Source: Streptomyces sp. SCL15-4
GTDB taxonomy: Bacteria > Actinomycetota > Actinomycetes > Streptomycetales > Streptomycetaceae
NCBI RefSeq assembly: GCF_033366695.1
Contig: NZ_JAOBTQ010000001.1
Coordinates: 434,001-498,000, forward strand
Reading direction: 5' to 3'
DNA: 64,000 bases
How positions within the stretch are numbered: position 1 is the first letter of the stretch; every line of letters starts with the position of its first letter. Under the pieces are notes generated by a model. It had not been told where the DNA came from and did not search any database. It saw only the letters and a program-made list of their open reading frames with translations. The position numbers and the translations under genes are program-made. Positions 36,546 through 61,542 of the stretch are shown piece after piece.

Positions 36546-37523
36546 TCAGACGGACTCCAGCAGGGGTCCCCACCAGGATCGATGACTCCGGTACCAGTCC
36601 ACCGTGGCGGCCAGCGCGGCCTCGAAGCCGACCTGGGGCCGGTATCCCAGCTCGGCGGTGATCTTGCCGTGGTCCACCGCGTACCGGCGGTCGTGGCCCT
36701 TGCGGTCCTCGACGTGCGTGATGCGCTCCGGGCCTGCTCCGCACCAGCGGAGCAGGCGGTGCGCGAGGTCCATATTGGTCAGCGAGGTGCCACCACCGAT
36801 GTTGTACGTCTGCCCCGGCCGTCCCGCCGTGCGCACCAGCTCCACCGCCCTGACGTGGTCGTCGACGTGCAACCAGTCGCGCACCTGCCGCCCGTCGCCG
36901 TACACCGGCAGGTCACCGCCGGTCAGCAGGGTGGCGACGAAGCGCGGGATGACCTTCTCCGGATGCTGGTAGGGGCCGAAGTTGTTGGAGCAGCGGGTCA
37001 CCCGGACGTCCAGGCCGTGGGTGTGGTGGTGGGCCAGGGCCACGAGGTCGGCCGCCGCCTTCGACGCCGCGTACGGCGAGCTGGGCCGCAGCTGGTCCTC
37101 CTCGCGTGCGGCACCCTGGGGTATCGAGCCGTAGACCTCGTCGGTGGAGATCTGCACGAAGGTGCGCACCCCGTGCCGCAGCGCGGCGTCCAGCAGGGTG
37201 TGGGTGCCCATCACGTTGGTGTGGGTGAAGCCGGTGCCGTCCTCGATGGAGCGGTCGACGTGCGACTCCGCCGCGAAGTGCACGATCTCGTCGTGCCCGG
37301 CCGCCAGCCGGCGCACCGTCGCGGTGTCGCAGACGTCGCCGTGCACGAAGGTCAGGCCGGGGTGGCCGCGGACCGGGTCGAGGCGGGCGAGGCTGCCCGC
37401 GTAGGTGAGTTTGTCCAGGACCGTGACCGCGACGCCGGACGGCCCCGCGGGGCCGAGCAGCGCGCGGACGTAGGCGGATCCGATGAAGCCGGCTCCGCCG
37501 GTGACGAGGATGCGTGACGTCAT
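36546..37523 (-). CDS. acbB: dTDP-glucose 4,6-dehydratase
   Basis: The protein has 325 residues of the RmlB family. TGGAGFIGS is at about 8-16, STDEVYGS lies in the active-site strand with the Asp-Glu pair, and YAASK holds the Tyr/Lys pair. It converts dTDP-glucose to dTDP-4-keto-6-deoxyglucose, the precursor of the 4-amino-4,6-dideoxyglucose unit of acarviose. Its ATG overlaps the acbA stop (ATGA), so the two are coupled. An RmlB for rhamnose is the alternative, but the aminotransferase divergent from acbA favours this pathway. Confidence 0.88.
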   Translation of the reverse strand: MTSRILVTGGAGFIGSAYVRALLGPAGPSGVAVTVLDKLTYAGSLARLDPVRGHPGLTFVHGDVCDTATVRRLAAGHDEIVHFAAESHVDRSIEDGTGFTHTNVMGTHTLLDAALRHGVRTFVQISTDEVYGSIPQGAAREEDQLRPSSPYAASKAAADLVALAHHHTHGLDVRVTRCSNNFGPYQHPEKVIPRFVATLLTGGDLPVYGDGRQVRDWLHVDDHVRAVELVRTAGRPGQTYNIGGGTSLTNMDLAHRLLRWCGAGPERITHVEDRKGHDRRYAVDHGKITAELGYRPQVGFEAALAATVDWYRSHRSWWGPLLESV

Positions 37524-38587
37524 GAGGTGAGCTGCACCTTGCTGTGGTCGCCGAGGACGAGACGGTGGGCCTGGGGCGGGCGGGGCGCGGCGGTCACCAC
37601 GGCCTCCCGGCCGATGAGCGACCGCTCGATCCGTGCGGCCCCCTCCACGCAGGCGCCCCGGAGGAGCACCGAGAACTCGATCGCGCTGTCCTCGACGCGG
37701 CAGTCCTCGGCGATGGCGGTGTACGGGCCGACGCTGGAGTTGTTGATGACGGCACCCGCCCCGACGACCACGGGTCCGACGATCCGCGATCCTCTCACCA
37801 CGGCCCCGTCCTCGATGCGGACCCGGCCCACCAGGACGCTGTGCGGATCGACCTTGCCGTCGACGCGCCCCTCCATCCGGTCCAGGACGTGCCGGTTGGC
37901 CTCCAGCAGGTCGTCGACGCTGCCGGTGTCGCGCCACGGCCGGGTGGTCGTCTCCGCGCGCACCGGCAGTCCGCGGTCGATCATCCACTGCACCGCGTGG
38001 GTGATCTCCAGCTCGCCGCGCCCGGAGGGACGGATGGCGCGCACCGCCTCGTGCACGGCCGGGGTGAAGGCATAGACGCCGACCAGGGCGAGGTCGCTGC
38101 GGGGGTGTTCCGGTTTCTCCTCCAGCCCTCGCACCGTTCCGTCGTCGTCGACTTCGGCGACGCCGAAGGCGGTGGGGTCGGGCACGGGGGTGAGCAGCAG
38201 GCGGGCGGCGTCCCGGTGTGCGGCGGCGCGCCGGACGAAGCCCGTCACGCCGTCCTCCAGGTGGTTGTCCCCGAGGTACAGCAGGAAGTCGTCGTCCGCG
38301 AGGAAGGTGCGGGCGACCGCCACCGCGTGGGCCAGGCCCAGGGGCCGGGACTGGTTCAGGTAGGCGATGTCCAGCCCGAAGGCCGAGCCGTCGCCGACCG
38401 CGCGGCGGATGTCGTCCCCGTGGTGGCCGACCACCACGCCCACCTCTTCGATGCCGGCGTCGGCTATCGCCTGGAGGGCGTAGTGCACCACCGGTCTGTT
38501 GGCGATGGGGAGGAGCTGCTTGGCGCTCGTGTGGGTGAACGGCCGCAGCCGGCTGCCGGTGCCACCCGCCAGGACCAGGGCTTTCAT
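37520..38587 (-). CDS. acbA: Glucose-1-phosphate thymidylyltransferase (long, StrD/AcbA type)
   Basis: From the ATG at 38587 the product has 355 residues, the usual length of the StrD/AcbA branch, and begins with MKALVLAGGTGSRLRPFTHT. The substrate motif EKPEHPRSDLALVGVYAF is present. A beta-helix tail (PHSVLVGRVRIEDGAVVRGS) marks the long form. It makes dTDP-glucose from dTTP and glucose 1-phosphate. The frame is open a further 31 codons upstream (GTG 38680), but that N-terminus is not family-like. The ATG has no strong ribosome-binding site of its own, which fits coupling to a short leader frame. Confidence 0.88.
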   Translation of the reverse strand: MKALVLAGGTGSRLRPFTHTSAKQLLPIANRPVVHYALQAIADAGIEEVGVVVGHHGDDIRRAVGDGSAFGLDIAYLNQSRPLGLAHAVAVARTFLADDDFLLYLGDNHLEDGVTGFVRRAAAHRDAARLLLTPVPDPTAFGVAEVDDDGTVRGLEEKPEHPRSDLALVGVYAFTPAVHEAVRAIRPSGRGELEITHAVQWMIDRGLPVRAETTTRPWRDTGSVDDLLEANRHVLDRMEGRVDGKVDPHSVLVGRVRIEDGAVVRGSRIVGPVVVGAGAVINNSSVGPYTAIAEDCRVEDSAIEFSVLLRGACVEGAARIERSLIGREAVVTAAPRPPQAHRLVLGDHSKVQLTS

Positions 38588-38631
38588 GCCGGGCACCGGT
38601 GTCGCGGCGGGGACTGGATCTGTGGTCTCAC
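38584..38631 (-). CDS. Possible 15-residue leader peptide coupled to acbA
   Basis: A GTG at 38631, with AAGGAG just upstream, opens a 15-codon frame. Its TGA overlaps the acbA ATG as ATGA, the same junction used throughout this cluster. It would explain how acbA is translated without its own strong ribosome-binding site. Not proven to be translated. Confidence 0.35.
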   Translation of the reverse strand: MRPQIQSPPRHRCPA

Positions 38632-38833: not shown

Positions 38834-40126
38834 GTGACGGCTCGGCACCAGCGGGAACAGTTGGAGCGGGAGGCGCGGCACCTGGCTCCGGGCGCCTCCG
38901 AGGAGGCGGCCGTCGGCCGCCGGGTCTTCGCCGAGGGGCGCGGCCCGGTCCTCACGGACCTCGACGGCAACCAGTACCTGGACTTCGCGGCGGGCACCCT
39001 GACCCAGTCCCTGGGACACGGCCATCCGGAGGTCGTGGCGGCGCTGACCGAGCAGGCCCGGCGCCTGTGGAACGTACACGACTCGGCGACGCCCGACCGG
39101 GCCGCCCTGCTGGAGCTGCTGGCCGGGCTGCTGCCGGAACGGCTGGACACGTACGCGCTGTTCTCCACCGGTGCGGAGGTCGTCGAGGCCGCGCTGCGCG
39201 TGGTGCAGGCCACCGCCGCACCGGGCCGCAACCGCGTCGGCGCGCTGCGCGGAGGCTTCCACGGCAAGACGATGGGCGCGCGGATGCTGGTGCACTGGGA
39301 CGTGGGCCACCAGGCCTTCGCCGGGAACTCCGTCCTCGGGTACTCGGCCTACTGCTACCGCTGCCCGCTGGAACTCACCTACCCCTCCTGCGGGCTGAGG
39401 TGCGCCTCGCTCGTCCGCAAGCACATCGCCGACAAGCCGAACATCTCGGCGCTGGTCTTCGAACCCGTCCTCGGAGCCGCCGGCGTCGTCGTGCCGCCGC
39501 CGGGCTACTGGGAGCAGATCGCCGAGGCCTGCCGGTCCAACGGCGTCCTGCTCGTGGCCGACGAGGTGCTCACCGGCGGCGGCCGGACGGGCACGTTCCT
39601 GGCGAGCGAGCAGTTCGGGATCGAACCGGACCTGGTGGCCCTGTCCAAGGGGATGGCCAGCGGGTTCCCGTTCGCCGTGCTGGCGGGACGGGCCGACCTG
39701 ATGCACCATCCGGCGGCCTCCGGGGCCGGTGCCTACGCGTCGACGTACGCGGGCAATCCCCTCGGCATCGCGGCGGCCCGGGCCACGCTGGAGGTCGTCG
39801 AACGCGACCGCCTGATCGAGCGGGTCCGGGTCCTGGGCGAGCTGCTGCACGAGCGGCTGAGGGCCCTTGCGGCCCGCTTCGAGAACCTCGGGGACGTGCG
39901 CGGCCTGGGGCTGCTGTACGGGCTGGAGTTCGTCACCGACCGGCAGAGCCGCACCCCCGCGCCGCACCTCGCGCGGGCCGTGTACACAGCCGCACTCGAC
40001 CTGGGCCTGCGCGTCGCCCTGGGCGGGCACATCCTGCGGCTGGCACCGCCCTTCACCATCGACGAGTCCCTCCTCGACGAGGGCGTGGGGCTGCTCGAAC
40101 AGGCCCTGGAACGGGTGCTGTCGTGA
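38834..40126 (+). CDS. acbV: dTDP-4-keto-6-deoxyglucose aminotransferase (class III PLP enzyme)
   Basis: The protein has 430 residues from a GTG after AAGGGGGTGGG. Class III aminotransferase motifs are LFSTGAEVVEAALRV, ADEVLTGGGRTGTF (cofactor Asp) and LVALSKGMASGFPFAV, whose Lys forms the PLP imine. AcbV makes dTDP-4-amino-4,6-dideoxyglucose, and the amino group becomes the bridging nitrogen of acarviose. The fold class differs from the DegT family usual for sugar aminotransferases, which is itself a mark of AcbV. It opens the rightward operon and is GTGA-coupled to the ABC transporter genes. Confidence 0.85.
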   Translation: MTARHQREQLEREARHLAPGASEEAAVGRRVFAEGRGPVLTDLDGNQYLDFAAGTLTQSLGHGHPEVVAALTEQARRLWNVHDSATPDRAALLELLAGLLPERLDTYALFSTGAEVVEAALRVVQATAAPGRNRVGALRGGFHGKTMGARMLVHWDVGHQAFAGNSVLGYSAYCYRCPLELTYPSCGLRCASLVRKHIADKPNISALVFEPVLGAAGVVVPPPGYWEQIAEACRSNGVLLVADEVLTGGGRTGTFLASEQFGIEPDLVALSKGMASGFPFAVLAGRADLMHHPAASGAGAYASTYAGNPLGIAAARATLEVVERDRLIERVRVLGELLHERLRALAARFENLGDVRGLGLLYGLEFVTDRQSRTPAPHLARAVYTAALDLGLRVALGGHILRLAPPFTIDESLLDEGVGLLEQALERVLS

Positions 40127-41166
40127 TCGTCGCGGAGAACCTCGTCAAGGAGTTCCGGCTCACCGAGCGCAAGCCGGGCCTGGCCGGCAGCCTGGCCACC
40201 CTCTTCACCCGCGAGCACCGCCTCGTCCGCGCGGTCGACGGCGTGTCCTTCACGATCCCGGCCGGCGCGAAGACGGCGTACATCGGCGCGAACGGGGCGG
40301 GCAAGTCGACCACGATCAAGATGCTGACCGGCATCATGACGCCCACCAGCGGGCGCTGTCTGGTCCGCGGCATCGAGCCCTACCGGCACCGGCAGGCCAA
40401 CGCCCGCGGCATCGGAGTGGTCTTCGGGCAGCGCAGTCAGCTCTGGTGGGACCTGTCCGTGCCGGACTCGTTCCGCATCCTGCGCCGGGTCTACGACATC
40501 CCCGATCCGGTGTACCACCGCAATCTCGCCCTCTACCGGGAGCTGCTGGACATCGACGCCCTCGGTACCACGCCCGTGCGACAGCTGAGCCTGGGGCAGC
40601 GGATGCGGGCCGAGATCGCGGCGAGCCTGCTGCACGATCCGGCGGTCGTCTTCTGGGACGAGCCGACCATCGGCCTCGACATGGTGCTCAAGGACGCGGT
40701 GCGGCAGCTGGTCAACCGCGTCCACGAGGAGCTGGGCACGACCGTCGTCCTCACCAGCCATGACATCGCGGACATCGCCGCCATCTGCGACAGCGCGCTG
40801 GTCGTGGACCGGGGACGGGTGGTGCACCAGGGCAGCATCCGGGATCTGCTGCGCACCGCCGACCGGCGTTCGGTCGTGTTCGACCACCGGGGCCGGCCCG
40901 ATCCCGGGCCCGTCCGCGCGGAGATAGAGCGGGGGCTGCCCGGGGTGAGCGCCTCGGCCGCCGAGGACGGCCGGATCAGAGTCGACTACCCGGCGGACCG
41001 CTTCACCTCCCGGCAGGTGCTCGGCTTCCTGCTCGAACGCTTCGACCTGGCGGACTGCTACGCGCCGGAACCCGATCTGGAGGACGTCCTGCGCAGGATC
41101 TACGGCGGGCACCGCGAGGCCCCGCCCGCCGGGGTCCCGGGCGGGCGCCGGGAGGGTGCGGCATGA
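40123..41166 (+). CDS. acbW: ABC exporter ATP-binding subunit
   Basis: The protein has 347 residues. Walker A is GANGAGKSTT, the signature is LSLGQRMRAEIA, and Walker B is VVFWDEPTIGLD, with a switch His in LTSHDIADI. An unusual N-terminal REKPGL-like segment (FRLTERKPGLAGSLATLFTR) and a C-terminal ligand-like domain are as in DrrA/EcsA-type exporters. With the two permeases that follow it matches AcbWXY, the proposed acarbose exporter. Overlapping starts and stops couple all three. Confidence 0.87.
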   Translation: MIVAENLVKEFRLTERKPGLAGSLATLFTREHRLVRAVDGVSFTIPAGAKTAYIGANGAGKSTTIKMLTGIMTPTSGRCLVRGIEPYRHRQANARGIGVVFGQRSQLWWDLSVPDSFRILRRVYDIPDPVYHRNLALYRELLDIDALGTTPVRQLSLGQRMRAEIAASLLHDPAVVFWDEPTIGLDMVLKDAVRQLVNRVHEELGTTVVLTSHDIADIAAICDSALVVDRGRVVHQGSIRDLLRTADRRSVVFDHRGRPDPGPVRAEIERGLPGVSASAAEDGRIRVDYPADRFTSRQVLGFLLERFDLADCYAPEPDLEDVLRRIYGGHREAPPAGVPGGRREGAA

Positions 41167-42023
41167 ACGGCCGGCTCCACCGGCGGCGAGAGAACCCGAC
41201 GCCCCGGCACCTGTCCGCACGCGCCCGGCGCTATCTGCCGTTCGCCACCGGAGGGCTGCAGTCCCTGCTCCAGTACCGTTCGACCTTCGTCACCACCGGG
41301 ATCACGGCCGCCGCCGGCGCGGCGATCACCGTCTTCCTGTGGCGGGCGGTGTACGCGGACGCCCCGCCGGGCGGCGGCCCGGGCGGCTTCACCGCCGAGA
41401 GCATCACCACCTATCTGCTGGTGGCGCAGGTGCTCCAGATCCTGCACGCCAACCGGGTGGACGACGAGGTCGCCGCCGAGGTCTACCGCGGTGACGTCGC
41501 CGTCATGCTGGTGCGGCCGGTCAGCTATCCGGTGATGCGGTTCTTCGCGTGTCTGCCGGTGGTCGCGGCCAACGCCGTGCTGGTCGGCGTCCCCGTGCTC
41601 GTGCTGTTCGCGCTGCTCGTGCCGCTCACCGCGCCGCGGCCCGTGGACGTGCTGCTGTTCGCGGTGTCCACCGCGCTGTCCGTGCTGCTCGCCTTCCTCG
41701 TGAACCTGCTGACCGGGATGACGGGCTTCGTCACCACGAACACCTGGGGGGTGCGGATGGTGAAGCAGAGCGTGGTCGCCTTCTTCGCCGGACAGCTGGT
41801 GCCCCTCGCGCTGATGCCGGGCTGGCTGGCGGCGCTGGCGTCCGCGCTGCCCTTCCGCGGCATGGTCGACGGACCGCTCACCCTGCTGCTCGGCCGGTAC
41901 GACGGTGCGGCCGGCGCGCTCGACGTGCTGGCCCGGCAGATCGGCTGGGCGGCCGCCCTGACGCTGCTCGCCGGCGTGCTGTGGCGGGCCTCGCTGAGCC
42001 GTCTGGAGGTGCTCGGCGGATGA
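41163..42023 (+). CDS. acbX: ABC-2 type exporter permease
   Basis: The protein has 286 residues with about six hydrophobic helices after a basic N-terminal tail. It resembles the DUF990/ABC-2 permease group found in pairs next to a single ATPase. It overlaps acbW and acbY by ATGA. It is expected to form half of the membrane channel exporting the pseudo-oligosaccharide. The cargo is assigned from context only. Confidence 0.83.
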   Translation: MNGRLHRRRENPTPRHLSARARRYLPFATGGLQSLLQYRSTFVTTGITAAAGAAITVFLWRAVYADAPPGGGPGGFTAESITTYLLVAQVLQILHANRVDDEVAAEVYRGDVAVMLVRPVSYPVMRFFACLPVVAANAVLVGVPVLVLFALLVPLTAPRPVDVLLFAVSTALSVLLAFLVNLLTGMTGFVTTNTWGVRMVKQSVVAFFAGQLVPLALMPGWLAALASALPFRGMVDGPLTLLLGRYDGAAGALDVLARQIGWAAALTLLAGVLWRASLSRLEVLGG

Positions 42024-42820
42024 CCGGCACGGTGTGGCGCCATGTGCGGCTGGCCTTCTTCCTCGGCGGGGTCGGACTGCACCGGCTGAGCATGTACCGC
42101 CTGGACTTCGCCCTCGGGGCGGGGGCCTTCCTGGTCCGCGTGGGCCTGCAGACGGCCGTGGTGGGCCTGGTCTTCCGGCAGGTGCCCGCGGTGGACGGCT
42201 GGACCTATCACGAGGTGCTGTTCCTGCTCGGCTTCTCGCTGCTGCCGCGCGGCCTGGACCACCTCTTCACCGACCAGCTGTGGGAACTGGGCCGCAAGCT
42301 GGTCCAGCGCGGCGAGTTCTACCGCTATCTGATCCGGCCCGTGAACCCGCTGTTCTCCCTGCTGTCGGAGCGCTTCTTCCATCCCGACGGCCTCGGCGAA
42401 CTCGCCGTCGGAGCCGTCCTGGTGGGCTGGTCCGGCAGCGAACTGGGGCTCCACCTCACCGCGGTGCAGTGGGTCGCGGCCCCGTTCCTCGTGCTGTGCG
42501 GCGCCCTGATCCACACCTCGGTGAAACTCCTGTTCGCCTCGCTGTCGTTCTGGACGGTGACCAGTCTGCCGTCGATGTACGCGGCGAACCAGGTGTCCGA
42601 GTTCGCCGCCTATCCGCTGGACATCTACCACCCCTCGCTGCGCGCCGTGCTGACCTGGGTGCTCCCCTTCGCCTTCACCTCGTACGTGCCGTGCGTCTAT
42701 CTGCTGACCGGCGCCACGGGGCTGGTGCGCTGGCTGCCGGTGGTGACCGCCGCGGCCCTCGCCGTCGCCTTGACCGTCTGGCGGCGCGGCGTCAACGCCT
42801 ACGAAATGACCGGGAGTTGA
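42020..42820 (+). CDS. acbY: ABC-2 type exporter permease, second subunit
   Basis: The protein has 266 residues and about six membrane helices (for example LHLTAVQWVAAPFLVLCGAL and a C-terminal LPVVTAAALAVALTVW). It is distantly related to its neighbour acbX and presumably pairs with it. The start ATG overlaps the acbX stop. Its own stop lies 8 bp before the GTG chosen for the next gene. Confidence 0.83.
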   Translation: MTGTVWRHVRLAFFLGGVGLHRLSMYRLDFALGAGAFLVRVGLQTAVVGLVFRQVPAVDGWTYHEVLFLLGFSLLPRGLDHLFTDQLWELGRKLVQRGEFYRYLIRPVNPLFSLLSERFFHPDGLGELAVGAVLVGWSGSELGLHLTAVQWVAAPFLVLCGALIHTSVKLLFASLSFWTVTSLPSMYAANQVSEFAAYPLDIYHPSLRAVLTWVLPFAFTSYVPCVYLLTGATGLVRWLPVVTAAALAVALTVWRRGVNAYEMTGS

Positions 42821-42828
42821 GCACGCAC

Positions 42829-44280
42829 GTGATCCGCGACGACGACCTCGAACCCCTGCTGCGCACCGCGTCCTGGATGCCGCGCGACCTGCGCGCCGCC
42901 CACCGGTACGAAGCGTTCGACCACGCCGAGCTGGGCCTTGGCGAGCTGCTGCTGGTGGTGGCCGCCGTCGGCGGACCCGCCTCGGGTGAACGGATCTTCC
43001 TGACGGCGCGCAAGGAGCCGTCGGGCGCTCTCACCGCGGCCGGCGCCGACGGGCCGCACGGACTCGCGGCCGTGCGCCGTGTGCTCACCGGCGCACGGCT
43101 GCGCACCACCCGCGGCGGGCACATCGACTTCCGCCGGGCGCCGTCGGCACCGGCCGGCGAGGTACGGCGGCTCCCCTTCGACCAGGGCTGGTCCTCCAAC
43201 TCACTGTCCCTGGTGGAGGTCGACGGCTCCGCGTACCTCCACAAGACCTACCGGCGCCTGGCCGAGGCGGTCCACGAGCCAGAACTGCTCCGGCTGATGA
43301 GCGGCACCGGGCACACACCCGAGTGGGCCGGTGACTACACCTACACGGACCCCGTGCACGGAACCCGGCACCCCGTGGGCGTGCTCTACCGCCACGCGCC
43401 GGGACAGGGGATCGACGCGCCGTTGCGCGAGAACCTGCGCTCCCTGTGGCCCCGGCTCACGGGCGGCGCCGTACCGGAACGGCTCGTGCACGCCCATCTG
43501 CTGCCGCTGGAAGGCAGGCTGCACTCCGCCGGGCGATTCCTGCGCGGCTTCCACCGCGACCTGGCGGCACGCCTGGGCGCTCCCGCCACCGGCTACCCCG
43601 TGGCCGGCGCCCTCGCGCGGTCCTCGGCACGGCTGGCCGAACTGGCCCGGGACGACGCACCGCTCCCCCAGGCCGCCCGGAAGGCCGCCTTCGGCGCCCT
43701 CGCCGCCGAACTCGACCTGCTGGAAACCGAGTTCGGCGGCCGGACGACGGCTCCCGGCGCCGGCCCCTGCCACGGCGATCTGCACCTGTCGCACCTACTG
43801 TGCTCCGACGCGGCCGACGGCACCTGGCACATGAGCGTCATCGACCTGTCCACGCCCGTCCTGTCACCGGACGACCCCGAGTACGCCGCCCAGTCCCCCG
43901 TGCAGGATCTCGTCGCCGTGCGCCGCGCGCTGGAGTACTTCGCCGCCGACGAGGCCGCCTTCGAGAGCGCCCGCAGGCTCGGCATCGACTCGACCGAGAC
44001 CATGTACGGCTCCCTGGACGGCGCGCCCGGCCTGCCGCCCGCGGACCGGGCCGTGCTGCACGGCGTCTTCCGCACCGCCGACCTCTGGCGCGAGCGCGTG
44101 CTGCGCCTGCTGCTCGGCCCCGCCACCGACGATCCGCTGCGGCGGCTGCTGTACCTGCGCCGGCTCCTGCACGAGCTGGGCTACAACCACGACCACGCCC
44201 GCCCCTACCACGCCGCGATCGACCTGCGCCACGCGCTCGCGCTGGCCTCCCCCGCCCCGACGACCCACGCGAGGACATGA
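42829..44280 (+). CDS. acbU: APH/maltokinase-fold cyclitol kinase (AcbU-like)
   Basis: The protein has 483 residues from the GTG, which has GGGAG 12 nt upstream; a TTG at 42817 overlapping the acbY stop is less likely. The N-terminal cap domain resembles that of maltokinases. The phosphotransferase core has the catalytic loop CHGDLHLSHLL (about 308-318) and the metal-binding IDLSTP after it. In the acarbose pathway AcbU phosphorylates the C1 hydroxyl of valienol 7-phosphate; context and order (between exporter and AcbS-like enzyme) support that role. A true maltokinase is the alternative. Confidence 0.78.
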   Translation: MIRDDDLEPLLRTASWMPRDLRAAHRYEAFDHAELGLGELLLVVAAVGGPASGERIFLTARKEPSGALTAAGADGPHGLAAVRRVLTGARLRTTRGGHIDFRRAPSAPAGEVRRLPFDQGWSSNSLSLVEVDGSAYLHKTYRRLAEAVHEPELLRLMSGTGHTPEWAGDYTYTDPVHGTRHPVGVLYRHAPGQGIDAPLRENLRSLWPRLTGGAVPERLVHAHLLPLEGRLHSAGRFLRGFHRDLAARLGAPATGYPVAGALARSSARLAELARDDAPLPQAARKAAFGALAAELDLLETEFGGRTTAPGAGPCHGDLHLSHLLCSDAADGTWHMSVIDLSTPVLSPDDPEYAAQSPVQDLVAVRRALEYFAADEAAFESARRLGIDSTETMYGSLDGAPGLPPADRAVLHGVFRTADLWRERVLRLLLGPATDDPLRRLLYLRRLLHELGYNHDHARPYHAAIDLRHALALASPAPTTHART

Positions 44281-48416: not shown

Positions 48417-48427
48417 GGGACGCGCCC

Positions 48428-53498: not shown

Positions 53499-54701
53499 AT
53501 GACAAGCCAGGTTCTCGATCGGGTCGGGCATCCGCCGGCAGGGGTCCGCGAGGATTCCGGCGGCTTCGACCTGAGCGCACCGGACGGCACCCGGTACCGG
53601 GTCGACCTCGGCACCGGGATACTCGACCCGGCCGACACCCTGCTCGCCGGCTATCTGGAGGACCGCCGGGTCGTGGCGTTCGTCAGCCCGACCGTCGACC
53701 GGCTCTACGGCGACCGGCTGCGGGCCTATTTGGCGGCCCATGTCCGGCCCGGCCAGTGGTCCTTGCACGTGCTGGCCACCGGTGAGCACCACAAGACCCT
53801 CGCCGCGGCGGAGCACGTGTGCGCCCTCGCCAAGGCGGACGGCCTGGACCGCCACGGGGTGATGCTCGCCGTCGGCGGTGGCATCGTGGCCGACGTCGTC
53901 GGCTTCGCCGCGTCCATCTACGCCCGCGGCATCCGCTACATCAAGGTCAACACCACGCTCGTCGGCCAGGTGGACGTCGGGGTCGGGGTCAAGACCGGCG
54001 TCAACGCCCTGCGCACGAAGAACATGTTCGGCGCCTACCATCCGGCGCACGCCTCCCTGAACGACCCGGCCTTCCTCGCGACGCTGCCGCACCGGGAGAT
54101 CCGCTGCGGGCTCGCCGAGATAGTGAAGATGGCCGTGATCCTGGACGGGGACCTGTTCCAGGCACTGGAGCGGCATCCGGACGCGTTCCGGCGCCCGGAG
54201 GGTGACGCGCACCATTCCCACGGGGAGCTGGAGACCTACATCCTGCGCACGTCGATGCGGCTGATGATGGAGGAACTCTGCCCCAACCTCCGGGAACACG
54301 AGCTGGCCCGGCTCGTCGACTTCGGCCACACCTTCAGCCCGGTGGTGGAGACGGCCGGCGACCACCGTCTGGAGCACGGCGAGGCGGTCGCCGTAGACAT
54401 GGCGCTCTCCGCCCACCTGGCACGCCTGCTCGGCCTCGCGGACGACGAGACGTGCGACCGCGTCGTCCGGTTGCTGCGGCGGATCGGGCTGCCGGTGTTC
54501 GACCCCGGCACCTGCACCCCGGAGCTGATGACACAGGCCCTGCATGCCTCCTGGCAGCGCCGGGGCCGCAAACTGCACCTCGTGGTGCCGACGGGTATCG
54601 GCAAGGCGGCCTTCGTGGAGGAGCTGGAGGACGTCCCCGCCGACGTCCTGGTCTCCGCGCTGAAGGCGCTCGCGGCTGACGGGGAGCGGCGCGATGCCTG
54701 A
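53499..54701 (+). CDS. acbC: 2-epi-5-epi-valiolone synthase (sedoheptulose 7-phosphate cyclase)
   Basis: The protein has 400 residues of the dehydroquinate-synthase fold. The NAD-binding glycine loop and the cyclase-specific segment GGGIVADVVGFAASIYARGI run into VNTTLVGQVDVGVGVKTGVN, the C7-cyclitol synthase form of the family. Metal ligands are Glu in GLAEIVKMAV and His in DFGHTFSPVVE and LEHGEAVAVDM. It converts sedoheptulose 7-phosphate to 2-epi-5-epi-valiolone, the first committed step. The ATG is preceded by GAGGAGAG; a GTG at 53487 would overlap the acbQ stop. This gene is the firmest evidence for a C7-cyclitol pathway. Confidence 0.93.
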   Translation: MTSQVLDRVGHPPAGVREDSGGFDLSAPDGTRYRVDLGTGILDPADTLLAGYLEDRRVVAFVSPTVDRLYGDRLRAYLAAHVRPGQWSLHVLATGEHHKTLAAAEHVCALAKADGLDRHGVMLAVGGGIVADVVGFAASIYARGIRYIKVNTTLVGQVDVGVGVKTGVNALRTKNMFGAYHPAHASLNDPAFLATLPHREIRCGLAEIVKMAVILDGDLFQALERHPDAFRRPEGDAHHSHGELETYILRTSMRLMMEELCPNLREHELARLVDFGHTFSPVVETAGDHRLEHGEAVAVDMALSAHLARLLGLADDETCDRVVRLLRRIGLPVFDPGTCTPELMTQALHASWQRRGRKLHLVVPTGIGKAAFVEELEDVPADVLVSALKALAADGERRDA

Positions 54702-55068
54702 GTCCGTGGTCAACCTGCGGGAACTGCTGACCGGCAAGGAGCGGGACCACGGCGGTCTCGGCACGATCCTCGCCCACCGCGTCTTCGCCCGCCGGCCCGG
54801 CTCCCCGGGCGCGGAATTCATCGATCTGGCGGTCCTGCCGCCGGGCACCTCGATCGGCCGGCACCGGCACGGCGCCGACCGCGAGACCTACATCGTGCTG
54901 GACGGCGAGGGCCTGATGTACCTCGACGGCGAGGAGTTCCGGGTCGGTCCCGGTGACGTCGTGGTCAACGGCCACTACGGCGAGCACGGCCTGCTCAACG
55001 ACGGCGAAAGGGATCTGCGGCTGCTCGTCTTCGAGGAGGGAGCGGCGGATGAGCGGCGGGCCGGCTGA
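54694..55068 (+). CDS. Small cupin protein, candidate cyclitol-phosphate epimerase
   Basis: The protein has 124 residues and a single cupin barrel. Cupin motif 1 (GRHRHGADRETYIVLDGEG, with two His and a Glu) and motif 2 (GPGDVVVNGHYGEHGL) supply a typical metal site. It overlaps acbC by 8 bp and the kinase by 20 bp. In acarbose synthesis AcbO epimerises 2-epi-5-epi-valiolone 7-phosphate; no AcbO-like gene is visible here. A metal-dependent cupin in exactly this place could do that job. This is inference only; a regulatory or detoxifying cupin is also possible. Confidence 0.6.
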   Translation: MPESVVNLRELLTGKERDHGGLGTILAHRVFARRPGSPGAEFIDLAVLPPGTSIGRHRHGADRETYIVLDGEGLMYLDGEEFRVGPGDVVVNGHYGEHGLLNDGERDLRLLVFEEGAADERRAG

Positions 55069-56089
55069 CGAGGTGTTCACCGTGGTCGACGTGGGCGGCA
55101 CCACGCTGCGGGTGGGCGACTACGATCCCGCGACCGGCGCCGTGCGCCGGGTGCGCCGGGTGCCCGTCGAGGGCCTGCACCGCGATCCGGGTGCTCCGGT
55201 ACCGGTGCTGCAACGCCGGGTGGTGGAGCAGATCGTGCGCGAGGTCTCCGCGCACACGGGCGGACGGCCGCCGCGGGCGCTGGGCGTGGCCTTCGCCGGG
55301 CCGATCTCGGCCGCCGGTCTGGTGCTCGCCGCGCCCACCGTCTGGGGACGGCGCGGCGATCCGCTGCCGCTGGGCGAGCTGCTGACGGAACGGACCGGCA
55401 CACCGGCCGTCGTCGTCAACGACCTGACCGCGGCGGCCTGGCGGTACGCCGCCACCGAGCCCGGGGACTTCTGCCTGCTCACCATCAGTTCCGGTATCGG
55501 CAACAAGGTGTTCCGCGGCGGCGAGGTCCTGCTGGACGCCGACGGCCACGGCGGCGAGCTGGGCCACTGGGTCTGCGACCCGTCGCCCGACGCGCCGCTG
55601 TGCGACTGCGGGGGCCGGGGCCACCTCGGCGCCATCGCCTCCGGGCGGGGCGTGCTGGCCGCGACGCGCCGGGCCGCGCGCGCCCGGGAGTCCGCCTTCC
55701 GCGCCTCCCGGCTCGCGGCGTCGTGCGGCGGCCGGGCGGACCGCGTCGACAACCGGGCGATCGCCGAGGCGGTCCGCGCGGGCGACCCCTTCAGCACGGA
55801 GGTGCTGCGCGGCACGCTGACGCCGCTGGCCCAGGCGGTCTCCGGGGTGTTCGCGTCGGTCGGGGTGTGCCGGTACATCCTCATGGGCGGCTTCGCGCTG
55901 GCGGTCGGTGAGCCGTACCGGCGGCTGCTGGTCGCCGAGTTGGTGCGGCTGGGCTGCTTCGGCCTCGATCCCGGGCAGATCGACGCCATGGTGTCGCTCG
56001 GGGTCGCCGACGACGATCACGGACTGATCGGTGCGGGCCGGCTGCTGGCGGACCGGATGCCGGCTCCGTTCTCCCAGGAGGCGTCATGA
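55049..56089 (+). CDS. acbM: ROK-family 2-epi-5-epi-valiolone 7-kinase (AcbM-like)
   Basis: The protein has 346 residues from an ATG 8 nt after GGAGGG. ROK landmarks are DVGGTTLRVG (about 12-21), FAGPISAAGLV, LTISSGIGNKVFRGGEV, GHGGELGHW and the zinc segment CDCGGRGHLGA. AcbM uses ATP to phosphorylate 2-epi-5-epi-valiolone at O7. It follows the cyclase and the cupin and is coupled to the SDR. The gene at 403-1464 is a full-length paralogue in the left locus. Confidence 0.87.
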   Translation: MSGGPADEVFTVVDVGGTTLRVGDYDPATGAVRRVRRVPVEGLHRDPGAPVPVLQRRVVEQIVREVSAHTGGRPPRALGVAFAGPISAAGLVLAAPTVWGRRGDPLPLGELLTERTGTPAVVVNDLTAAAWRYAATEPGDFCLLTISSGIGNKVFRGGEVLLDADGHGGELGHWVCDPSPDAPLCDCGGRGHLGAIASGRGVLAATRRAARARESAFRASRLAASCGGRADRVDNRAIAEAVRAGDPFSTEVLRGTLTPLAQAVSGVFASVGVCRYILMGGFALAVGEPYRRLLVAELVRLGCFGLDPGQIDAMVSLGVADDDHGLIGAGRLLADRMPAPFSQEAS

Positions 56090-57009
56090 GCGAGCGGATC
56101 CTTGTCGTGGGCAGCGGCCTGGTGGGCACCGGGATCGCCCGGCGGCTGGCGGCGGGGCAGCCCGTGACGCTCGCCTCGCGCCGCCCGCCCTCGGTGCCGC
56201 CCGAGGAGTACGGGGCCCGCTGGGCCGCCCTCGACGCCACCGACGCCACGGCCTGCCGGCGGTTGCTGGACCACCTGCGCCCGGGAGGCGTCGTCCTGGT
56301 GCACGGCCCGTCCGACGTCACCTGGTGCGAGGCCCACCCGGAGGAGGCCCGGGCCGCGCACGTCGGCGTCGCGGAGACCTTCGCCGCTCTGGCGCGCGAC
56401 GCGCGGATCGTGATGATCTCCACCGACAACGTCTTCGACGGCGGCTCGGCGGACAACACCGAGAGCGCCGCCGTCTCCCCGGCGAACGCCTACGGCCGGG
56501 CGAAGGCGGAGGCGGAGCGGGCACTGCTCGCCTCGGCGGCCCGGGCGGTGGCCCTGCGGGTCAGCCTCGTCTACGGCCACGAGCCGGCCGACGCGGGCAA
56601 GTGGCTGAACTTCTTCGCCGCGTGCGCCCACCGGCTGCGGCACGGAGAGCCGGTCGAGGCCCCGGACGACCACTGGACGACCCCGGTCCTCCTGGACGAC
56701 GTGGCGGAGGTGACAACGGCCCTGCTGCGCGTCGGGCATCCGCTGCCTCCCGTGCTGCACCTCGGCGGCCCCGACCGCCTCACCCGTGCCGCATGGGCCA
56801 CCGTCATCGCCCGGGAACTGGGCGCGCCCGCCGGCCTGGTGACACCGGTACCGCGGGCCCTGACCCGCTATGCCTCCCGTCCGGTGAACGCCTGCCTCGG
56901 CAGTGAGCTGCTGGCGACCCTGCCCGCCACCGAGGGGATCACGGTCCGCGGGGTGCGCGAGGGAGCGCGCCTGCTGGCGCCCGCGTTCGCCGGAACCCCG
57001 GCCGTGTGA
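56086..57009 (+). CDS. RmlD-like SDR, candidate cyclitol reductase
   Basis: The protein has 307 residues. GSGLVG cofactor loop, VLVHGPSDVTWCE, STDNVFDGG and YGRAK are shared with 1461-2369. Extended SDRs of this type reduce ketosugars with NADPH. In the Actinoplanes pathway AcbN and AcbL carry out the reduction and dehydration of the 7-phosphorylated cyclitol, but neither is recognisably this type. The gene may replace one of them. It is coupled to the kinase by ATGA, as in the left locus. Confidence 0.72.
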   Translation: MSERILVVGSGLVGTGIARRLAAGQPVTLASRRPPSVPPEEYGARWAALDATDATACRRLLDHLRPGGVVLVHGPSDVTWCEAHPEEARAAHVGVAETFAALARDARIVMISTDNVFDGGSADNTESAAVSPANAYGRAKAEAERALLASAARAVALRVSLVYGHEPADAGKWLNFFAACAHRLRHGEPVEAPDDHWTTPVLLDDVAEVTTALLRVGHPLPPVLHLGGPDRLTRAAWATVIARELGAPAGLVTPVPRALTRYASRPVNACLGSELLATLPATEGITVRGVREGARLLAPAFAGTPAV

Positions 57010-57047: not shown

Positions 57048-58994
57048 GTGGCCACAGCACCCACCCGTTTCCGGCATGCCCGGCTGTACCTCACCTTCCG
57101 CTGCAACTCCCGCTGCGGGTACTGCAATGTCTGGCAGGACCCGGTCTTCGACGGACACCGGGAGCTGACCTCCGACGGGTTGCGGCGCTGCCTCGACGAG
57201 CTGGCGGAACTGGGCGTCACCTACCTCGACATCACCGGTGGCGAACCGTCCCTGCACCGTGAACTGGTCACGGCGGTACGGCACGCGCGGGACCTGGGCA
57301 TGACCGTGGAACTCACCACCAACGCCATCCGGTTCGCCCCGCTGGCGGCCGGGATCGTGCCCCTCGTCGACACGCTGAACATCTCGCTGGACACGCTCAG
57401 CGCCGAGCGTTACCACCGCATCCGCGGTACGGACACCCTCGACCGCACCCTGGCCCTGGTGGAGAGCCTCCGGGCCGAGGGAGCGGGCAACCTCAAGCTG
57501 ATCTGCGTGGTGACCGACCAGAACGCCGGCGAAGTGGAGGACGTGGTCGCCTACGCGCAACGGCACCGGGTCGCCGTCTACCTCGCGCCCATGTTCGGCT
57601 ACTTCGCGGCACAGAGCGAGGTGCGCCCGGCCGGCTCGGTGCGGATGCTGAAGCTGGCCGCCGTCAACGGACGGAGCACTGCGGCGACTTCGGCCGAGAC
57701 GCCCGCGCGGGTGCCGTCGTCGGAGCTGCTGCGCCGGGTGGCGGAGCAGCGGTACGCGCCGTACACCACGGTGAACCTGGCCTTCGTGCACCATATGCGG
57801 ACGCTCTCCCCGGCGACCGCGACCGCCTGCGGGGCCAACTCCCGCATTCTCACGGTCGGCCCGGACGGCCGGGTCATGCTGCCCTGCTATCACGAGTGGG
57901 ACGCCTCGCTGCCCTGGGAGCGGCCGTACCGGGAGCTGGTGCGGGACCCGGAGCTGGTCCGGGTGCGGGACGAGGAGGTGGGTCACCGCCCCGCCTGCCG
58001 CACCTGCGCGGTCTTCCCCTATCTGGGACTGCCGATGAGCCACCGGCTCACCACGCCGTTCCTGCTCCAGGCGTTCTCCCGGGAGCTGGACCGGATCAAA
58101 CCGTACGCGGCGGCCCCGACGCCCGAGCGCCGCGCGGAGCTGCTCGAACGGAGCGACGCGCTGCTCGCGGAGGTGGAGCGGGTGTCCGCGCCGCTGCGGC
58201 CCGGGGAGCACCTGGACGAGCTGTACCACTTCGAGGCGGCGGAGGCGGGCGTGCGCACCGGTCTCGCGCGGCAGCCGGTCGCGGTGGAGGAGCTGCTCGC
58301 GGACCACGCCCACGACGACTGCTGGCCGGCCCAGCGGACCCCGCATCGCCTCGTCCGGCTGCTGTACACCGAGATCCTGCCCGCGCTGGCCGCCGAGGCG
58401 CGGCACGACCCGGCACCGGTGTCCGCGCTCGCCACGGACGTATGGGACATCCATCTCGACTGCTGGCACATCCTGCTGGCGCTGCTGCCCGGGGGCGCGG
58501 CGCCGGACGTCGCCGTGCGGCAGCGGCTCGCGCACTGGTGCGCGCGGGCCGGACAGGTCCTCGGCGGCCGTTCCGCGGCGCCGGCCCTGGCCCTGCTGGC
58601 GTGCCTGAGCACGCTGCCCGCCGCGGAGATCGCCTCCTGGGGCTCGCCCCGGGGGCACACGGAGGAGCCGCTCGCCGTCAAGCTGCTGCGCTCGCTGGCC
58701 GGCCCGGAGCGCCGCGCGGAACTGGCTTGCCTTTTCTCACCTCAATTCACGCCCGCGCTGACGGGCGAGCCGGTGCCGGCCGATGGCGCCACGGCGGTGT
58801 CCGAGCGGGTGCCGACGCCGGAGGAGGCGCGCGGCGGCCACGGCGTGGAGCGGTTCGTGACCGCGCTGCGCGGGGCGGACACCGGTGCGCTGCGCGGCGC
58901 CCTGCGGCGCTGGAAGGCGGCGGCGGACCCGGTGACGGCCCCGGACATCGCACGGCGTCTGCTTCTCGCCGAACTCGGCGCCGGCCCCCGGTGA
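57048..58994 (+). CDS. Radical SAM enzyme with Cys-rich SPASM/twitch-like region and long C-terminal extension
   Basis: The protein has 648 residues from the GTG at 57048, which has GCGAGGAG just before it; a GTG at 57006 overlapping the SDR stop is possible. The iron-sulfur motif CNSRCGYC is canonical (Cx3Cx2C), followed by DITGGEPSLH and TNAIRF. Further cysteines (TACGANS, VMLPCYHEW, PACRTCAVF) suggest an auxiliary cluster as in SPASM/twitch enzymes. The last 320 residues are helical and unassigned. It ends a tightly coupled run (cyclase, cupin, kinase, SDR), so a step on the cyclitol such as dehydration or epimerisation is plausible. No acarbose gene from Actinoplanes that I know matches it. 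Confidence 0.8.
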   Translation: MATAPTRFRHARLYLTFRCNSRCGYCNVWQDPVFDGHRELTSDGLRRCLDELAELGVTYLDITGGEPSLHRELVTAVRHARDLGMTVELTTNAIRFAPLAAGIVPLVDTLNISLDTLSAERYHRIRGTDTLDRTLALVESLRAEGAGNLKLICVVTDQNAGEVEDVVAYAQRHRVAVYLAPMFGYFAAQSEVRPAGSVRMLKLAAVNGRSTAATSAETPARVPSSELLRRVAEQRYAPYTTVNLAFVHHMRTLSPATATACGANSRILTVGPDGRVMLPCYHEWDASLPWERPYRELVRDPELVRVRDEEVGHRPACRTCAVFPYLGLPMSHRLTTPFLLQAFSRELDRIKPYAAAPTPERRAELLERSDALLAEVERVSAPLRPGEHLDELYHFEAAEAGVRTGLARQPVAVEELLADHAHDDCWPAQRTPHRLVRLLYTEILPALAAEARHDPAPVSALATDVWDIHLDCWHILLALLPGGAAPDVAVRQRLAHWCARAGQVLGGRSAAPALALLACLSTLPAAEIASWGSPRGHTEEPLAVKLLRSLAGPERRAELACLFSPQFTPALTGEPVPADGATAVSERVPTPEEARGGHGVERFVTALRGADTGALRGALRRWKAAADPVTAPDIARRLLLAELGAGPR

Positions 58995-59064
58995 CGCCCC
59001 TCCTCCCCGCACGGCGGTTCCACATCCCTCCTGCCTCCCCACCCGACCTCTCAGCGGAGCGACC

Positions 59065-60555
59065 ATGAAGATCCCGTCCCTTGCGTCCGGCTACGACGTC
59101 GTCATCCTCGGCGGCGGAGTCGCCGGCTGCGTACTGGCGGCACGCCTGAGCGAGGACCCCGGCCGCACCGTGTGCCTCGTGGAGGCGGGCCCCGACTACG
59201 GACCCCGGCGGGAGAGCTGGCCCGAGAAGATCCGCAACGCCCGTGCCCTGCCGCGCGAGGACGTGTGGGAACGGCACACGGAGTTCTACCGCGTCCGGGC
59301 CCGCGTCCTGGGCGGGTCGTCGTGCATCAACGGCGCCTGGAACACATGGGGGTCGCACGCCGACCACGCGGAGTGGTCCCGCGCCGGCGGTGAGCGGTGG
59401 TCGGCCGGCGCGCTGGAGCCGTACCGGCTGCGGGCCGTGGAGCGCATGGGGCTGCGCACCGTACCGGACCCGGAGCTGTCCGCCTGGGCCTCGGCCGCGC
59501 TGGTGGCGGCGCGCGAACTCGGCTATCCGGAAGTGGACATGGGCACTGCGGGGCCGCCCGGACACGGCCGGCCGCTGCTCAACTCCGTGGACGGGCTGCG
59601 CTGGAACGCCGCCTTCGCCTACCTGGACCCGGCGACCCGGGCGCGGCCGAACCTGACGATCCTCGGCGACGCCCTGGTGGACCGGCTGTCCCTGCGCGCG
59701 GGCCGGGTGACCGGCGCGCACCTCGTCCTGGACGGGCAGCCGGTGACCCTGGAGGCCGGCACCCATGTCCTGGCGTCCGGCACCTTCGGCTCTCCCGCCG
59801 TGCTGCTGCGCAGCGGCATCGGCCCCGCCGCGCAGCTGGAGGAGACCGGCATCCGCTGCGCGGCCGACCTCCCCGGTGTCGGCGCCAACCTGTCCGACCA
59901 GCCCGGTGTCTTCGTACCCCTGTCCCCCACGGACGGCCTGAACAAGGCGCTGGCCGCCAAGGAGGCGGCCGGGGAGCTGTACGTCAGCCGCATGCTGATC
60001 CGGGCGGCCAGCGAGTTCTGCCCGGACGGGGCGTGGGACCTGCACCTCCTGCCCACGGCCGGCCCGCCGCTGTTCGGCTCGCTCCCGCCCGGGCAGTACG
60101 AGGCCGGTATCTCCGCCTTCCTGATGAAGCCGGTCTCGCGCGGGCACGTCCGGCTGCGCTCCGCCGATCCCCTGGAGCCTCCCGAGATCGACCCCGCCTT
60201 CCTGACCGACCCGGCGGGCCGTGACATCGCCGTCGTGCGGGCCGGCCTGCGGAAGGTGGAGGAACTCGCCACGGCCATGAAGCCGCTGGCGGGGCCCGCG
60301 GACGCGGTACCGGCCCACACACTGTCCGACTCGCGCCTGCGGGCCCGGGTGGGCACCTACTGGCATCCCGTGGGCACCTGCGCCATGGGTCCGGCGGACG
60401 ATCCGCGGTCCGTGGTCGACGGGCAGGGCGCCGTGCACGGTGTGGCGGGGCTGCGCGTCGCGGACGCCTCCATCCTGCCGACCGTGCCCGCCGCCAACAC
60501 CCAGCTTCCGGTCCTGGCCGTCGCCGAGATGCTCGCCGACACCCTTCGCGCCTGA
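59065..60555 (+). CDS. GMC-family FAD oxidoreductase
   Basis: The protein has 496 residues. The FAD motif DVVILGGGVAGCVLAARLSE is at about 9-28, GMC signature 1 is LGGSSCINGAWNTWG, and the C-terminal active site is GTYWHPVGTCAMG with the paired PAANTQLPVLAVAEM segment. These flavoenzymes oxidise alcohols of sugars or polyols. No signal peptide is visible. It is 70 bp after the radical SAM gene and on the same strand, so probably in the same transcript. It could oxidise a cyclitol or sugar hydroxyl on the way to, or after, the acarviose core. Confidence 0.83.
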   Translation: MKIPSLASGYDVVILGGGVAGCVLAARLSEDPGRTVCLVEAGPDYGPRRESWPEKIRNARALPREDVWERHTEFYRVRARVLGGSSCINGAWNTWGSHADHAEWSRAGGERWSAGALEPYRLRAVERMGLRTVPDPELSAWASAALVAARELGYPEVDMGTAGPPGHGRPLLNSVDGLRWNAAFAYLDPATRARPNLTILGDALVDRLSLRAGRVTGAHLVLDGQPVTLEAGTHVLASGTFGSPAVLLRSGIGPAAQLEETGIRCAADLPGVGANLSDQPGVFVPLSPTDGLNKALAAKEAAGELYVSRMLIRAASEFCPDGAWDLHLLPTAGPPLFGSLPPGQYEAGISAFLMKPVSRGHVRLRSADPLEPPEIDPAFLTDPAGRDIAVVRAGLRKVEELATAMKPLAGPADAVPAHTLSDSRLRARVGTYWHPVGTCAMGPADDPRSVVDGQGAVHGVAGLRVADASILPTVPAANTQLPVLAVAEMLADTLRA

Positions 60556-60597
60556 CCTTCCTCCCCCTCCACCGAACGCGTCCACGACGGAGACGAC

Positions 60598-61542
60598 ATG
60601 GCGGCAGAGACCGACATACGCACGCACAAGCTGCTCTACGGCTGCATGGGCCTCGGCGGCGGCTGGGACACCGAGCCGTACACGGCCGAGGACATCCGGC
60701 ACGCGGAGACCGCGATCGAGGCGGCGCTGACCGCCGGCATCACGGCTTTCGACCACGCCGACATCTACCAGTACGGCAAGTCGGAGGCCGTCTTCGGCGA
60801 GGTGCTGGCGCGCAGCTCGGGTCTGCGGGAACGCATCGTGCTGCAGACCAAGTGCGGCATCCGGCTGCCCGACGGCGACCGGCCCGGACTCTACGACCTG
60901 CGGGGTGCCGGCATCGTACGGCGGGTCGAGGAGAGCCTGGTCCGGCTGCGCACGGACGTCCTCGACGTCCTCCTGCTGCACCGGCCCGATCCGCTGACCG
61001 ACCCCCGGGAGATCGCCGCGGCACTGACCTCCCTGCACGCCCAGGGGCTGGTACGGCAGTTCGGCGTGTCCAACATGAGCGGCCCGCAGATCGCCGCGCT
61101 GCGGGCCCACACGGACCTCCCGCTGGTCGTCAACCAGCTGGAGATGAGCCTGGCCCGGCGGGACTGGGTGGAGGCGGGTGTCCTGTTCAACACGCCGGAC
61201 GCCACCCGCAACGGCTTCGCGCCCGGCACGCTGGAGTGGTGTGCGGCGAACGGCGTCCGGCTCCAGGCATGGGGCCCGCTCGCCCGGGGCCGCTTCACCT
61301 CGGGCGCGGACACGCGGGCGAGCCGGCTCGTCGCGGAACTCGCCCGGCGCAAGGACACCACACCGGAGACCATCCTCCTGTGGTGGCTGCGACGCCACCC
61401 GGCGGGCATCGCTCCCGTCGTCGGCACCACCCGCCCCGAACGCATCACGGCCTGCCGGGACGCGGCCCTCCGCGAGCCGGACCTCACCCACGAGGAGTGG
61501 TACGGCCTGTGGACGGCCGCGCGGGAGGCTCCGCTGCCCTGA
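60598..61542 (+). CDS. Aldo/keto reductase
   Basis: The protein has 314 residues of the AKR barrel, nearest the YdhF-like group. The catalytic tetrad is visible: Asp and Tyr in FDHADIYQYGKSE, Lys in LQTKCGI, His in LLLHRPDPL. QAWGPLARGRF and VVGTTRPERI form the NADPH pocket. Paired with the preceding oxidoreductase, it could complete an oxidation/reduction inversion of one stereocentre. Its 3' end overlaps the convergent lipoprotein gene by 59 bp. It may also be unrelated to the cluster, at its border. Confidence 0.8.
   Translation: MAAETDIRTHKLLYGCMGLGGGWDTEPYTAEDIRHAETAIEAALTAGITAFDHADIYQYGKSEAVFGEVLARSSGLRERIVLQTKCGIRLPDGDRPGLYDLRGAGIVRRVEESLVRLRTDVLDVLLLHRPDPLTDPREIAAALTSLHAQGLVRQFGVSNMSGPQIAALRAHTDLPLVVNQLEMSLARRDWVEAGVLFNTPDATRNGFAPGTLEWCAANGVRLQAWGPLARGRFTSGADTRASRLVAELARRKDTTPETILLWWLRRHPAGIAPVVGTTRPERITACRDAALREPDLTHEEWYGLWTAAREAPLP

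Follow-up and report, generated by a model that had tools for sequence, protein, structure and literature searches.

How does a Streptomyces acarviose-type cluster reach valienol 7-phosphate when the enzymes that lead there in Actinoplanes are missing from it? The question is raised by a 64,000-nucleotide stretch of the Streptomyces sp. SCL15-4 genome (contig NZ_JAOBTQ010000001.1, positions 434,001 to 498,000; hereafter the window, in whose numbering positions are given unless stated otherwise). In Actinoplanes, the path from 2-epi-5-epi-valiolone to valienol 7-phosphate is described as running through phosphorylation by AcbM, C2 epimerisation by AcbO, dehydration by AcbL and reduction by AcbN (PMC9200736, PMC7081202). 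Our analysis indicates that the window probably holds a cluster of the sct/gac type for an acarviosyl-oligosaccharide, an inhibitor of alpha-amylase and glucosidase, with a cyclitol branch made up of the genes C, J, M and O. Within this branch we infer that the cupin J would be the 2-epimerase and the short-chain dehydrogenase/reductase (SDR) O the NADPH reductase, with the dehydration left between O, J and an enzyme encoded elsewhere in the genome.

The central point, that AcbO, AcbL and AcbN are missing and that J and O stand in their place, is already published for Streptomyces clusters. A 2021 review presents the sct cluster of S. coelicoflavus ZG0656 as having no homologues of AcbO, AcbL and AcbN, and enters SctJ (138 amino acids, aa) and SctO (324 aa) without an acb homologue; its proposal is that SctJ epimerises while SctM and SctO phosphorylate and dehydrate, and by its account all sct enzymes were still uncharacterised in 2021 (PMC8234114). 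What is new here, as far as we have seen, is the division between general and accessory genes, the kinship with ValC and ValK, and a second cluster nearby.

Gene calling by codon bias gave 46 genes in the window. Each gene that an earlier, sequence-only reading had named is an intact open reading frame with a high-GC coding bias, and its acb set of A, B, V, W, X, Y, U, S, R, K, I, Q, C and M is all present. Letters were assigned by Pfam class, place in the cluster, protein length and homology to genes of Streptomyces loci rather than by direct comparison with acb, gac or sct sequences, and sct is represented by the table of the review (PMC8234114), not by the ZG0656 sequence. Between 36546 and 57009 the order is B and A on the minus strand, then V, W, X, Y, U, S, R, K, I (with a haloacid dehalogenase, HAD, domain), Q, C, the cupin, a ROK kinase and an RmlD-like SDR on the plus strand, the genes from V to O (V-W-X-Y-U-S-R-K-I-Q-C-J-M-O) forming a single packed run with intergenic gaps of -20 to +19 bases. 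At the end of the run lie, all on the plus strand, the C gene (53499..54701, between Q and the cupin), the metal cupin in the SctJ/GacJ position and proposed 2-epimerase (54694..55068; 124 aa, Cupin_2), the predicted ROK cyclitol 7-kinase in the AcbM/SctM position (55049..56089; 346 aa), and the SDR in the SctO/GacO position (56086..57009; 307 aa), a proposed NADPH reductase and perhaps also a dehydratase. A radical S-adenosylmethionine (SAM) protein, a glucose-methanol-choline (GMC) oxidoreductase and an aldo/keto reductase (AKR) follow the SDR after gaps of 38, 70 and 42 bases. A scan of 53.4-62.0 kb for promoters and terminators found none (shuffled sequences averaged 0.1 and 1.1), which leaves gene spacing as the sole guide to operon limits; with Rfam at its gathering thresholds, the window gave no RNA family.

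Eighteen of the 19 proteins encoded in 36546-61542 have a fitting Pfam match, the exception being the protein in the AcbU position. The core set A, V, W, X, Y, U, S, R, K, I, Q, C, J, M and O is complete for the sct/gac type, U being placed by position and length only, and order and sizes are as listed for sct/gac. An acarviose-type product is predicted, as the earlier reading had it. Judged by Pfam domains rather than by comparison with Actinoplanes sequences, the cluster shows no recognisable AcbO/L/N set, as had been claimed and as the review reports for sct (PMC8234114). None of the 19 proteins is a vicinal oxygen chelate (VOC) protein, and the 37 matches of the genome to ADH_N (zinc-dependent, medium-chain-type dehydrogenases) include none in G000:C1:404001-512000, the closest lying at 517683. 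The expectation of a near-Actinoplanes gene order did not hold: from B to O the order is that of the sct table, whereas K-M-L-N-O-C are consecutive in Actinoplanes by their locus tags (PMC6599336).

Scanning genome contigs for AcbS yielded 40 loci, and whole-genome searches started from 37 of these (all except L011, L019 and L020) covered 35 other genomes, several of them fragmented drafts in which a single absence is weak evidence. The cupin is found in 36 of the 40 loci; three of those without it (L011, L029, L046) reach a contig end before the cupin's place, and the fourth (L036) has none. Among 100 relatives including the host itself only three carry the cupin, and both others also carry AcbS. 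The SDR occurs in all 35 AcbS genomes and in the host (36/36). In a class-wide search of 394 genomes the AcbS query matched the host genome only (SctO-type and AcbC queries were run likewise on 394 each). The three genes downstream are distributed differently. Matches to GMC pass the threshold in 25 of the 35 genomes, but two of these have only paralogues of 36-38%, which leaves 23 at an identity of at least 67%; AKR orthologues occur in 25; and the radical SAM gene in 16, three at 81-82% and thirteen at 45-48%. Close GMC and AKR are both absent from ten genomes, in nine of which (L054-L061, L064) inspection of the stretch after the SDR revealed no orthologue of GMC, AKR or the radical SAM gene; in the tenth, S. 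glaucescens NRRL B-2706, the piece with the SDR runs into a contig end (L069). S. atriruber and strain 13-12-16 have AKR and no close GMC, and draft gaps may explain some absences. Because GMC, AKR and the radical SAM gene are present in only 23, 25 and 16 of the 35 genomes, we regard them as accessory, while the cupin and the SDR are general parts of the Streptomyces-type cluster.

The active-site residues of both general proteins are conserved. In the cupin, H57, H59, E64, H98 and Y66 are invariant in 35/35 sequences, and the first four also in 17/17 of a second alignment; three histidines and one glutamate form the metal-site motif of cupins, and by this site J is predicted to be of the metal-dependent type. 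Its structure model has a predicted local distance difference test (pLDDT) score of 90.4. Phosphomannose isomerase, KdgF and the lyase DddK are among the best 50 structural matches, and BacB is among the structures and profiles that resemble J; no family named as a 2-epi-5-epi-valiolone 2-epimerase matched it in Pfam or NCBIfam. In the SDR, Y136 and K140 are conserved in 147/147 sequences, T113 in 144/147 and the three glycines of GxGxxG in 142-143/147. GxGxxG and the T/Y/K residues are the SDR motifs, and their conservation fits an NAD(P)H reductase. The protein scores 111 bits against a curated NCBIfam rmlD cut-off of 224, so it is not filed as RmlD itself. As the SDR keeps its reductase residues, and as labelling it a dehydratase would leave the reduction without an enzyme, O is assigned as the reductase. 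The shared letter might suggest an AcbO orthologue, but that candidate was rejected, since the review lists SctO without an acb homologue (PMC8234114).

A further clue to the branch comes from S. hygroscopicus NBRC 13472, which has an acarviostatin-type cluster and a separate validamycin-like region (L106). One strand of this region encodes a 2-epi-5-epi-valiolone synthase (EEVS), a nucleotidyltransferase, a ROK kinase and a VOC protein; the other an RmlD-like SDR, a GT20 protein of 497 aa, a class-III aminotransferase, an alcohol dehydrogenase (ADH), a GT2 protein and a major facilitator superfamily (MFS) transporter, where the EEVS, nucleotidyltransferase, kinase, GT2 and MFS labels rest on homology to genes of the second cluster described below (L006). 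The layout fits the val operons valABCD and valKLMN as published (PMC3424136), and ValL is given as 497 aa (PMC3288074), so that 'validamycin-like' refers to gene order, domains and ValL length rather than to comparison with val sequences. The window's M, O and R are 55%, 51% and 66% identical to the proteins in the ValC, ValK and ValB positions, and for M this compares with 31% reported between SctM and AcbM (PMC8234114). Against this likeness, L106 has a VOC (ValD-type) gene where the window has cupin J, carries an ADH-type gene and encodes GT20 rather than AcbS; the 19 kb read contain no J-type cupin. ValD is said, in the title of a cited paper, to be a VOC epimerase. Given the kinship of M and O with the ValC- and ValK-position proteins, the Streptomyces acarbose-type clusters look like mosaics of acb-like assembly genes and val-like cyclitol genes, with a cupin where val has a VOC protein.

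Gene identity, order and conservation, the conserved residues and the co-occurrence of genes are direct observations; the enzyme activities, and the order in which J and M act, are what we infer from them. C would form 2-epi-5-epi-valiolone. The epimerisation of C2 and the loss of the 5-OH both start at a carbon beside the C1 ketone, and cupin J, as a metal enzyme able to stabilise the C1 enolate, would epimerise C2 in place of AcbO and ValD. ROK kinase M would phosphorylate O7, and valienol 7-phosphate would arise when the ValK-type SDR O reduces the C1 ketone, using NADPH. The 5-OH would be lost by elimination through the conjugate base (E1cB) beside the C1 ketone, catalysed by O or J; we slightly favour O, which is also the published proposal. 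U, R, S, I, K and Q would then assemble and extend the product as in Actinoplanes, while GMC, AKR and the radical SAM protein may act later or elsewhere, in tailoring or recycling.

The sequence-only reading had cast all five unassigned genes, the cupin, SDR, radical SAM, GMC and AKR genes, as the middle pathway. All five do lie downstream of acbC in the same direction; GMC is within 20.6 kb of AcbS in 22/22 genomes that have both on one contig (the 23rd has them on two different contigs), and it follows a PfkB kinase gene in several species. Yet GMC at 67% or more is absent from 12, AKR from 10 and the radical SAM gene from 19 of the 35 AcbS genomes, all three from the drafts of S. coelicoflavus NBRC 15399 and S. 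glaucescens NRRL B-2706, and none of the three is named in the sct table, which enters one gene, SctT, as unknown (PMC8234114). On this distribution we reject the five as a single pathway, a joint role for them being very improbable; what survives of the claim is the near-universal cupin and SDR, the other three being optional. Another reading would assign 2-epimerisation, dehydration and 1-ketone reduction, for which Actinoplanes has three other enzymes, to just two proteins, the metal cupin and a ValK-type SDR, the latter being a dehydratase-reductase, with a conserved tailoring module of kinase, GMC, AKR and radical SAM protein alongside. It is weakened because the ADH-type gene of the validamycin-like cluster could dehydrate, and we hold it only tentatively, as a possibility that is on balance doubtful. 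No description of a PfkB-GMC-AKR(-radical SAM) module was found in open-licence papers.

The dehydration could also fall to an enzyme encoded outside the cluster, such as an AcbL-like zinc dehydrogenase. The genome offers its 37 ADH_N matches, none near the cluster, AcbL itself is described as an NADPH-preferring dehydratase assayed with zinc (PMC9200736, PMC7081202), and the validamycin-like cluster has its ADH-type gene; however, beyond C, J, M and O the loci inspected have no additional gene in common at that end, a finding with no bearing on unlinked genes. We rate this as possible though unlikely. Alternatively, J could be bifunctional, the metal cupin catalysing the beta-elimination of the 5-OH as well as the 2-epimerisation and leaving O only to reduce valienone 7-phosphate. 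Both reactions begin with proton removal beside the C1 ketone, O retains its reductase residues, and a metal-cupin dimethylsulfoniopropionate lyase, DddK, is among the similar structures and profiles, but its identity to J is low (24-26%), many other cupins match equally well, and no second activity is indicated by the sequence; a bifunctional J appears rather unlikely.

Several points weigh against the assignment of J as 2-epimerase and O as reductase within a C-J-M-O branch, which we nevertheless prefer. The activities of both would follow from sequence and structural likeness. Structurally, J comes closest to a predicted oxalate decarboxylase, with dioxygenases also among its matches, so its reaction does not follow from the fold. 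Three chemical steps fall to two proteins, which means that one is bifunctional or that a step lies outside the cluster, and with 37 ADH_N matches in the genome an unlinked AcbL-type dehydratase is possible. As the ADH-type gene of L106 could perform the dehydration there, that region is no proof for O, and the review calls SctO a dehydratase (PMC8234114). L036 is an AcbS locus without the cupin; its V gene is short, and its sole AcbC-like match, at 35%, lies on the opposite strand. Finally, in the second cluster a VOC gene sits next to a cupin of another kind, which means that cupin and VOC do not simply replace each other.

That second C7-cyclitol cluster occupies positions 1-4780 and continues upstream of the window (L006:2583-18000). 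It encodes an EEVS, a 248-aa cupin, VOC, HAD, SDR, GT2 and two MFS proteins, an 830-aa fusion of an AcbS-like protein to NUDIX, an AcbR-like protein, a ROK kinase, a ValK-type SDR, another GT2 protein and a 2-oxoglutarate oxygenase. Its EEVS, kinase and nucleotidyltransferase are 59-72% identical to validamycin-position proteins, and the fusion has close relatives in other Streptomyces. At L008:10746-14747 (G000:C1 ~655.7-659.7 kb), a third EEVS-like gene is followed by cupin-like, SDR-like and DegT-type aminotransferase genes. Positions 7668-15583 carry carotenoid-type genes, for a lycopene cyclase, a polyprenyl synthetase, a phytoene synthase and two FAD amine-oxidase/desaturase-type proteins.

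The acarviose-type cluster itself spans about 18.6-61.5 kb. The genes placed earlier at 36546..61542 are real; its start lies further upstream, with regulator, importer and amylase genes at 18562-36128. On the minus strand these begin with a 353-aa LacI-family regulator of SctC1/C2 type (18562..19623; LacI/Peripla_BP_3), 75-81% identical to the regulators that separate the importer genes from B in L018, L023 and L046, the place of SctC1. There follow a 554-aa GH13 enzyme (19625..21289; Alpha-amylase), SctE1-like by size and neighbours (SctE1, 553 aa), and a sugar ATP-binding cassette (ABC) importer of SctG/F/H type (21373..24686; BPD_transp_1 twice, SBP_bac_1), with permeases of 304 and 292 aa and a solute-binding protein of 417 aa (SctG 301, SctF 335, SctH 424 aa). 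An 853-aa pullulanase-type protein (25386..27947, plus strand) has no counterpart in the sct table. Back on the minus strand are two SctZ-like alpha-amylases of 1020 and 1037 aa with pullulanase-associated domains (28016..34328; 69-71% homologues beside other clusters; SctZ1 1042, SctZ2 1619 aa) and a 549-aa alpha-amylase with a starch-binding domain (34479..36128), SctE2-like by size (565 aa). A tRNA-Arg (ccg) lies between the amylase genes and acbB (36420-36513, minus strand).

Within the assembly part, the minus strand encodes the AcbB/SctB-type dTDP-glucose 4,6-dehydratase (36546..37523; 325 aa, as SctB; GDP_Man_Dehyd/Epimerase) and the AcbA/SctA-type dTDP-glucose synthase (37520..38596; 358 aa, SctA 357 aa; NTP_transferase). 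The plus strand continues with an AcbV/SctV-type aminotransferase (38834..40126; 430 aa, Aminotran_3), an AcbW, X, Y-type exporter (40123..42820; 347, 286 and 266 aa, ABC_tran and two ABC2_membrane_6), the AcbU/SctU-position protein (42817..44280; 487 aa, as SctU, with no Pfam or NCBIfam match), the AcbS/SctS-type pseudoglycosyltransferase (44277..46370; 697 aa), the AcbR/SctR-type nucleotidyltransferase (46390..47469; 359 aa) and the AcbK/SctK-type PfkB kinase (47466..48416; 316 aa). The sequence-only reading had listed I/J as one entry: AcbI is present, but as a single 1010-aa protein with the HAD phosphatase fused to it (48413..51445; glycosyltransferase domains, Hydrolase_3 at 747-999), in line with the AcbI-type gene of about 1000 aa expected of the sct/gac type (SctI is listed at 1027 aa). 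An AcbQ/SctQ-type GH77 glucanotransferase (51442..53490; 682 aa) precedes C.

The accessory genes, all on the plus strand, encode a 648-aa radical SAM protein with SPASM-like cysteines (57048..58994), a 496-aa GMC oxidoreductase (59065..60555) and a 314-aa AKR (60598..61542). The radical SAM protein has CNSRCGYC at 19, and C19/C23/C26, C261, C280, C317 and C320 are invariant in 17 sequences; its model has a pLDDT of only 69.5, and the fold search returned radical SAM/SPASM structures in general, with query-length TM-scores of at most 0.34. A DUF4232 gene follows AKR (61484-62488); an 80% identical copy adjoins the SDR piece at the contig end of S. glaucescens NRRL B-2706 (L069:9772-10668), in the opposite relative orientation. 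Elsewhere, the order PfkB kinase-GMC-AKR recurs in several species, mostly with the radical SAM gene next, and Nocardiopsis has two AKR paralogues (28-32%) near its SDR. A second type of AcbS cluster (L036, L037, L039, L040, L042, L047) has no AcbI part and no A or B match within the loci; stand-alone HAD-type and NUDIX-like genes are followed by PfkB-GMC-AKR and mostly the radical SAM gene. S. alfalfae XY25 shows clusters of equal identity values on three contigs (L018, L019, L020), by triplication or assembly artefact, and G431:C1:554717-556837 is an AcbS-like match with one in-frame TAG stop.

Acarbose, a drug against diabetes, is produced by fermentation. Should J and O prove sufficient, AcbO/L/N could be replaced by a two-enzyme route. 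The GMC/AKR/radical SAM module may mark unrecognised product variants.

Among known systems, sct of S. coelicoflavus ZG0656 is the closest in layout: gene order from SctB to SctO is the same as in the window, sizes are similar, SctJ and SctO are present, and homologues of AcbO/L/N are lacking; the S. coelicoflavus NBRC 15399 locus has a 138-aa cupin at the same place. The window's upstream genes are of the kinds that the sct table lists before SctB, but their arrangement differs, the table placing the amylases first and SctC1 between H and B, where the window has amylases. The window also has one LacI gene seen and an extra pullulanase-type gene, some upstream sizes differ (1037 aa against 1619 for SctZ2, 292 against 335 for SctF), and it adds radical SAM, GMC and AKR genes after O, in a comparison that leaves aside SctT and Scim. 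The acarbose cluster gac of S. glaucescens GLA.O, compared by list rather than sequence, agrees with the window in its whole core as given in a 2026 paper, A, V, W, X, Y, U, S, R, K, I, Q, C, J, M and O, which names J and O (PMC13240717); the draft of S. glaucescens NRRL B-2706 has O and, unlike the window, no close GMC, AKR or radical SAM gene. With acb of Actinoplanes sp. SE50/110, compared by description, the window shares counterparts of A, B, V, W, X, Y, U, S, R, K, I, Q, C and M as tabulated for sct and the same predicted acarviosyl core, whereas in Actinoplanes the gene order is different and AcbO, AcbL and AcbN perform the middle steps.

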